This document shows positions 43,540-43,836 of a stretch of 64,000 bases of DNA, piece by piece; the first letter of the stretch is position 1, and each line of letters starts with the position of its first letter. The stretch lies in assembly GCF_000337775.1 (NCBI RefSeq), contig NZ_AOLQ01000059.1:1-64000 (forward strand), given 5' to 3'. The notes beneath the pieces were generated by a model that saw only the letters and a list, made by a program, of their open reading frames with translations, ran no database searches and was not told the DNA's origin. Source of the stretch: Haloarcula vallismortis ATCC 29715 (GTDB lineage: Archaea > Halobacteriota > Halobacteria > Halobacteriales > Haloarculaceae). Made by a program: the position numbers and the translations under genes.

Positions 43540-43612
43540 AGTCCATTGGGGTAGAGGCCAATCCTGAAGCCTTCTGGGGGCTTCGACCCTGGTTCGAATC
43601 CAGGATGGACTA
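43540..43612 (+). tRNA. tRNA-Gln (CUG)
   Basis: Acceptor AGTCCAT pairs perfectly with ATGGACT, discriminator A. The D arm contains GGGGTAGAGGCC, the anticodon arm is GAAGCC-TTCTGGG-GGCTTC with anticodon CTG, and the T arm is CCTGG-TTCGAAT-CCAGG. CCA is not encoded; no intron is seen. An AT-containing CTTACAAAG at 43505-43513 may be its promoter element. The acceptor start with A is usual for haloarchaeal tRNA-Gln. Confidence 0.95.
43591..43612 (+). repeat. tRNA-Gln 3'-end repeat, copy 1 (in the tRNA)
   Basis: GGTTCGAATCCAGGATGGAC plus TA, the T arm and acceptor end of the tRNA. An exact 22-base copy lies 116 bases downstream. Confidence 0.9.
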
Positions 43613-43836
43613 TTTCTGCGGCGAGCAAACTCGCGAGCTGCGAAATTGTAATTACTGGAATCGAACCCTGCCAGTCGCACGTAGCGAAGCGAGCACGTCT
43701 GGCTTCGGTTCGAATCCAGGATGGACTACTCTTGTCGCGAACAAACCGTGAGCGACAGCGTCGTTATTAGTGGATTCGAGCCCTGAAAGACGAGCGAAGC
43801 GAGTCTTTCCGTGGTTCGAATCGGCTATTCCACTCG
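43613..43836 (+). repeat. Diverged tandem array downstream of tRNA-Gln
   Basis: GGTTCGAATC recurs at 43591, 43707 and 43813 (periods 116 and 106). The sequence between copies is also repeated in diverged form: GCGAGCAAAC at 43621 and GCGAACAAAC at 43737; TGGAATCGAACCCTG and TGGATTCGAGCCCTG; and a stem with AGCGAAGCGAG loop in each unit. No coding frame is convincing. Confidence 0.75.
43707..43728 (+). repeat. tRNA-Gln 3'-end repeat, copy 2
   Basis: Exact 22-base copy of the tRNA 3' end without the 5' half, so not a tRNA gene. The form is that of an attachment-site duplication or of a tandem duplication through the tRNA end. Confidence 0.9.

Follow-up and report, generated by a model that had tools for sequence, protein, structure and literature searches.

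The window, a stretch of 64,000 nucleotides from Haloarcula vallismortis ATCC 29715 (NZ_AOLQ01000059.1, positions 1 to 64,000 of the forward strand), carries at 43540..43612 on the + strand a gene for tRNA-Gln with the anticodon CTG (ARAGORN; Rfam RF00005, 47.7 bits). The last 22 nt of this gene, GGTTCGAATCCAGGATGGACTA (43591-43612), recur as an exact copy at 43707..43728, 116 bp on and on the same strand; the two copies lie within a 40-nt repeat of 85% identity, and an exact repeat of this length and spacing is far beyond chance. A third, partial copy, GGTTCGAATC, follows a further 106 bp downstream at 43813..43822 (+ strand) and comprises the first 10 nt of the 22-mer; it is the T-loop part only, the acceptor part being gone, as it is from last copies elsewhere. 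The neighbouring genes are those for a phosphoesterase, IMP cyclohydrolase, a universal stress protein (Usp) and a PHO4 phosphate transporter; none of them codes for an integrase, and the locus has no cargo. The exact repeat, the shorter third copy and the absence of an integrase nearby had all been pointed out in a sequence-only reading of this DNA and were borne out here, as was its description of the spacers as diverged repeats of one another with matching stem-loops.

Computed folds give the two spacers matching two-hairpin structures, both more stable than all 200 of 200 dinucleotide shuffles (z -3.4 and -4.5), and each spacer contains a strand complementary to the T-arm. In unit 1, hairpin A (43613..43645, + strand; a stem, tandem G.A pairs, 2 bp and a loop) abuts the 3' end of tRNA-Gln; it was assigned by fold and covariation, and the assignment is supported by related units, in which the stem covaries and the GA/GA is near-invariant. 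Hairpin A is followed by what we call the anti-T strand, CTGGAATCGAACCC (43655..43668, +), which is the complement of the T-arm copy at 43707 and is backed by fold, covariation and specificity for the local tRNA. Next comes the inner stem-loop of hairpin B (43670..43703, +; placed by alignment), with a type I core, GCCAGTCGC...GCGAAGCGAGCACGTCTGGC, that occurs in near-identical form behind many other tRNAs. Unit 2 repeats this arrangement on the + strand, with hairpin A at 43732..43758 (by fold), an anti-T strand, GGATTCGAGCCC, at 43772..43783 and an inner stem-loop with a type II core, GAAAGACGAGCGAAGCGAGTCTTTC, at 43785..43809 (both by fold and alignment). A covariance model matches unit 2 at 43729-43825 with E 1e-19, a value to be read with the fact that unit 2 is itself among the 20 Haloarcula units from which the model was built.

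The units share one plan, running from hairpin A through a short linker, the anti-T strand and the inner stem-loop to a copy of the local tRNA 3' end that begins at the T-loop (GGTTC). In hairpin A the stem and a 2-bp helix both covary, the tandem G.A between them hardly varies, and a loop closes the hairpin; the outer stem of hairpin B is formed by the anti-T strand and the T part of the 3'-end copy. Unit length in the collected set is about 85-215 nt (median about 120), with a repeat of roughly 110 bases. We do not claim hairpin A as a k-turn or L7Ae site, the GA/GA being symmetric and without a bulge.

Searching the H. vallismortis genome with the covariance model gave 18 matches, 17 of which lie downstream of a tRNA and on its strand (13 tRNA genes); at 9 of these 13 genes the first unit begins no more than 4 nt from the tRNA end. 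The model overlooked a perfect copy behind Leu-TAA; with that copy included, units follow 14 of the 42 tRNA genes that lie outside a cluster of 25. The cluster itself (contig C4:254165-257733; 25 genes in about 3.6 kb) had no model match and is probably accessory. Given that two thirds of the tRNAs outside the cluster have no units and that their occurrence differs from species to species, units are dispensable at any one tRNA.

At E<=0.001 the same model had matches in 287 of the 292 haloarchaeal genomes, covering 75 of 77 genera. Scanned across the phylum, it matched 79 of 81 genomes from the order of H. vallismortis and none of the 312 others; the numbers of units per genome in both scans are to be taken as "at least". 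The class members without a match at E<=0.001 under strict filters (G293, G045, G051, G152 and G214) are possible cases of natural loss. When the best match was taken from each of 60 non-Haloarcula genomes, a sample biased by that choice towards good ones, 59 of the 60 lay downstream of a tRNA on its strand. An independent scan for the exact pattern of the type I core returned 55 matches, 49 of them sitting 49-336 nt behind a same-strand tRNA, with 2 more at contig starts and 4 after a tRNA 3'-end fragment. The arrays behind a fragment, with no whole tRNA (L130, L131, L158 and L174), are placed as if they had been displaced by an element integrated upstream. One type I core behind a tRNA (L140, PXTT01000074.1) lies on a contig binned as a Bacteroidetes MAG, which is probably a misbinned haloarchaeal contig.

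Twenty dispersed loci were also examined. At these the hairpin matches lie directly behind Val, Arg, Lys, Asp, Glu, Gly and Leu tRNAs, on the same strand, and the units end in the 3' end of the local tRNA and have an anti-T strand that suits the local T-arm. The idea of a transposed repeat, which came from these dispersed matches, was dropped because the matches sit behind other tRNAs and cluster by tRNA locus. There were four exceptions among the 20 loci. Two low-scoring loci (L032 and L033) were discarded as family members, what they contain being a common GAGCGAAGCGAG palindrome found in other repeats. At the third (L041:650-720; G006 C3 about 240.16 kb) a tRNA-Cys of a plasmid tRNA cluster carries a hairpin B with type I core within its T-arm, and the tRNA is split by this insertion. 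At the fourth, a rearranged tRNA-Gln locus (L046:600-1000; G005), the 5' half of a tRNA-Gln is followed by unrelated sequence and then by a complete, different tRNA-Gln, an arrangement that looks like an insertion or replacement.

Structural conservation was assessed in 138 units from loci outside the model-building set. In these, 94.2% of cells are paired and 543 cells are compensatory, compared with 158 after shuffling and no more than 66 in slid controls; these counts lean towards the model because the alignment was fitted to it. A model-free test of the anti-T helix compared wobble with A.C pairs and found wobble at 94 of 763 eligible sites (12.3%) versus A.C at 36 of 897 (4.0%; p 3.5e-10), with corresponding values within Haloarcula of 42/271 and 13/309 (p 3.4e-6); both p-values are optimistic since related sequences are not independent. 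The excess of wobble over A.C pairs indicates selection on an RNA, and selection on DNA palindromes alone would predict equal rates on both strands. An alternative to RNA selection is a strand-biased mutation process, about threefold and acting on both transition types. The bias is clear only in the anti-T helix; the ratio of G.U to A.C was 16:15 in the hairpin A core over all rows (8:5 in the best 90) and 9:9 in the inner stem (7:3 in the best 90).

The anti-T strand is also matched to its own tRNA. At variable T-arm positions its pairing with its own tRNA versus other tRNAs scored 0.97 vs 0.74 and 0.98 vs 0.69, further own versus other scores were 0.86 vs 0.71 and 0.69 vs 0.37, and the match falls to near background past about 11 nt. 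Internal 3' copies carry on average 0.57 mismatches per 21 positions to the tRNA, with adjacent spacers only 63% identical. In the last copies the acceptor part has 1.58 mismatches per 11 versus 0.34 per 11 in the T part, the conservation of the T part being favored by the way in which the copies were found. From the intactness of internal copies and the loss of the acceptor part from last ones we conclude that the acceptor part is retained only where another unit follows. A polarised, CRISPR-like accretion of units was rejected on the ground that copies in the middle of an array are no less intact than the first.

All 32 of the Haloarcula genomes searched contain a match, and in most of them the orthologous tRNA-Gln lies between the genes for IMP cyclohydrolase and the universal stress protein. 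The number of units behind it ranges from 0 recognisable (L016, L020, L021 and L026) to 3 (L003). The sequence-only reading had offered two interpretations of the array, namely repeated integration and loss of elements at this tRNA or a tRNA-derived RNA array. The former is not supported: between constant flanking genes the Haloarcula locus differs only by its 0-3 short units, and where both flanks could be compared no large insert was seen. It gains something only from two relatives (L015 and L027), in which the acceptor of tRNA-Gln differs from that of most Haloarcula and the distal copy retains the 3' end common in the genus; this suggests that the tRNA-Gln gene was replaced there and that its old 3' end was left behind as a fossil.

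Haloarcula units have a mean identity of 0.726 to units behind the same tRNA in other species, versus 0.594 to units behind other tRNAs in the same genome and 0.617 to units behind other tRNAs in other genomes. With same-tRNA identity the highest of the three, inheritance by locus is indicated rather than recent transposition. Nor do the units behave as dispersed MITE, REP or SMR elements, for which varied sites and copies alike within a genome would be looked for. The type I core pattern had no match in the IMG/VR viral database and the array had none in phage records; a search with the array matched 1 of 72,556 plasmids. The matching plasmid is NZ_CP119561.1 of Haloarcula halophila, where the match, at a position equal to that of the L041 insertion, lies within a tRNA-Cys of the plasmid's tRNA cluster. 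Per-locus inheritance, variable unit number, near-absence from plasmids and phages and the lack of an integrase thus leave repeated element integration unsupported. The second interpretation, a tRNA-derived RNA array, is supported as far as sequence comparison goes, with units of the same plan behind many tRNAs across the class, strong covariation and a wobble-pair bias all in its favor.

A DNA-level explanation should nevertheless be weighed. The chief rival is an att-type array, in which a site-specific recombinase would use the segment from the T-loop to the 3' end of the tRNA, each unit would be a minimal integrated cassette moved in trans, and the palindromes would be recombinase or ssDNA-hairpin sites. 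Direct repeats of a tRNA 3' end, as found at the tRNA-Gln locus, are the classic scar of integration, and a distal copy left from a replaced tRNA-Gln in L015 and L027 would be of a piece with this. The main supports, in our view, are the four displaced arrays, which stand behind tRNA 3'-end fragments and not behind whole tRNAs, and the identity of internal copies, expected of working att cores, next to last copies that have decayed. We still regard this explanation as unlikely. There is no integrase or cargo between the repeats and no inserted element in relatives, carriage by viruses or plasmids comes down to the single plasmid match, and there is no gradient of decay along the arrays. Its main problems are that both the recombinase and a carrier are missing, that units resemble those of same-tRNA orthologues and not those elsewhere in the genome, and that the wobble asymmetry is strand-specific.

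Two other explanations were weighed. If a functionless trailer hairpin had been duplicated in tandem by slippage between 22-mers and had then drifted, its arms being kept by quasi-palindrome correction, a copy number of 0-3 at the tRNA-Gln locus would be natural, and correction by template switching would hold the anti-T strand equal to the local T-arm. We consider this improbable: drift sits poorly with spacers that are 63% identical while internal 22-mers are nearly perfect, palindrome correction would not be expected to yield near-invariant tandem GA mismatches or a wobble bias, and the units occur class-wide behind many tRNA species. More improbable again is a transcription-termination or trailer-protection module, with hairpins that halt RNA polymerase or exonucleases and a repeated 3' end that is a by-product. 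In 9 of 13 first units hairpin A begins only a few nt from the tRNA end, and it often overlaps a T-rich stretch; both would suit such a role, but most tRNA genes of the same genome lack the module, and the anti-T strand and the exact internal 3' copies are left unexplained.

There is precedent for this plan in RtT RNA (RF00391; rttR in the tyrT and tyrV operons of E. coli). At tyrV/rttR of E. coli K-12, which served as a control, a 178-nt unit closes with a repeat of the tRNA-Tyr 3' end (19/22) and has a strand complementary to that repeat (12/14). Three RtT copies are recognised there by Rfam, whose consensus pairs the same two strands, the 5' strand GGGGAAGGAU with the repeated tRNA 3' end AUCCUUCCCC. 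The haloarchaeal units are alike in that (i) they stand in tandem downstream of a tRNA and on its strand, (ii) the tRNA 3' end is copied at the end of each unit and (iii) a 5' strand of the unit folds back on the repeated 3' end. They differ in having hairpin A with its tandem GA, in having other cores, in standing behind a wide range of tRNA species in almost all genomes of the order, and in lacking any sequence or covariance-model match to RtT. With RF00391, neither the array nor any of ten related loci gave a match at E<=5, and the H. vallismortis genome gave none at E<=1, with the E. coli control positive; the model matched 1 of 14 control genomes (E. coli). When the array and these ten loci were scanned against Rfam, the only matches that passed the gathering scores were tRNA and a 5S rRNA. 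According to PMC4986893, which cites Bosl and Kersten (1991), RtT RNAs are freed from the primary transcript as the tRNA is processed and are linked to the stringent response. Having the architecture in common with RtT and no match to its model, the haloarchaeal units are RtT-like by architecture and not members of RtT by sequence.

Other systems bear a partial likeness. RNAs of the 3'ETS-leuZ type, from the spacers of tRNA precursors, are stable tRNA 3'-trailer RNAs that act as sRNA sponges in E. coli. The haloarchaeal units would likewise be tRNA 3'-trailer RNAs, but 3'ETS-leuZ is not known to have a repeated tRNA 3' end, and we know of no tandem units among RNAs of that type. The att sites of integrated elements (archaeal tyrosine recombinases, PMC8371274) share the direct repeat of a tRNA 3' end; in the haloarchaeal units, however, about 95 bp of conserved, structured spacer takes the place of cargo, no integrase is present, copies are many per genome and the stems covary. 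Also comparable are the SMRs (small mobile repeats) and PATEs of Haloquadratum walsbyi, roughly 110-bp non-coding haloarchaeal repeats with inverted repeats, of which SMRs insert into PATEs and IS605-type transposons (PMC3119063), whereas the units described here follow tRNA genes and show no transposition between loci.

In the literature searched we found no description of this family, and the units appear to form a family of tRNA-linked RNAs, so far undescribed, that follows the plan of the RtT RNA of E. coli. Missing from Rfam 15, they would belong with the most widely distributed non-coding elements of the class that still await description. With the plan held in common with RtT, Haloferax and Haloarcula would offer a second, genetically tractable group in which to study tandem copies of tRNA 3' ends. 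The units may also account for apparent att scars at haloarchaeal tRNAs, which could otherwise be mistaken for old integrations.

We lean, with moderate confidence and from comparative evidence, towards the array being a local instance of haloarchaea-wide tRNA-trailer RNA modules that are co-transcribed with the tRNA and work like enterobacterial RtT RNA. Transcription would run on from the tRNA into its units, and a cut at the tRNA 3' end, presumably by tRNase Z, would turn the trailer into a single structured RNA or several, each about 85-215 nt long (median 120). Within hairpin B, pairing of the anti-T strand with the T-arm part of the duplicate would keep the latter from competing with the tRNA's own 3' half. 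Internal copies are probably kept identical to the tRNA as processing points between units; the last copy would be dispensable, its acceptor part being free to decay, and recombination between the 22-nt repeats would make arrays expand and contract. Several points count against the RNA model. DNA recombination, too, would be expected to make the acceptor part identical to the local tRNA, the wobble bias is weak or lacking outside the anti-T helix, most tRNAs of the genome do without units, and keyword passages of H. volcanii RNA-seq papers contain no mention of such trailers.

A doubtful variant of the RNA model is that the units are an order-wide system of two-state modules, convergent with RtT in architecture, in which the anti-T strand could pair either with the duplicate or with the real T-arm and thereby tune tRNA maturation or emit tRNA-linked regulatory RNAs. 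If this were true, 3'-end fold-back modules would be a general and overlooked route from tRNA genes to new RNAs. A computed equilibrium fold of the precursor placed the 5' acceptor strand on the duplicate 3' end (0.94 vs 0.02); we set this fold aside and suspect that the outcome reflects the multiloop branch bonus of the energy model.
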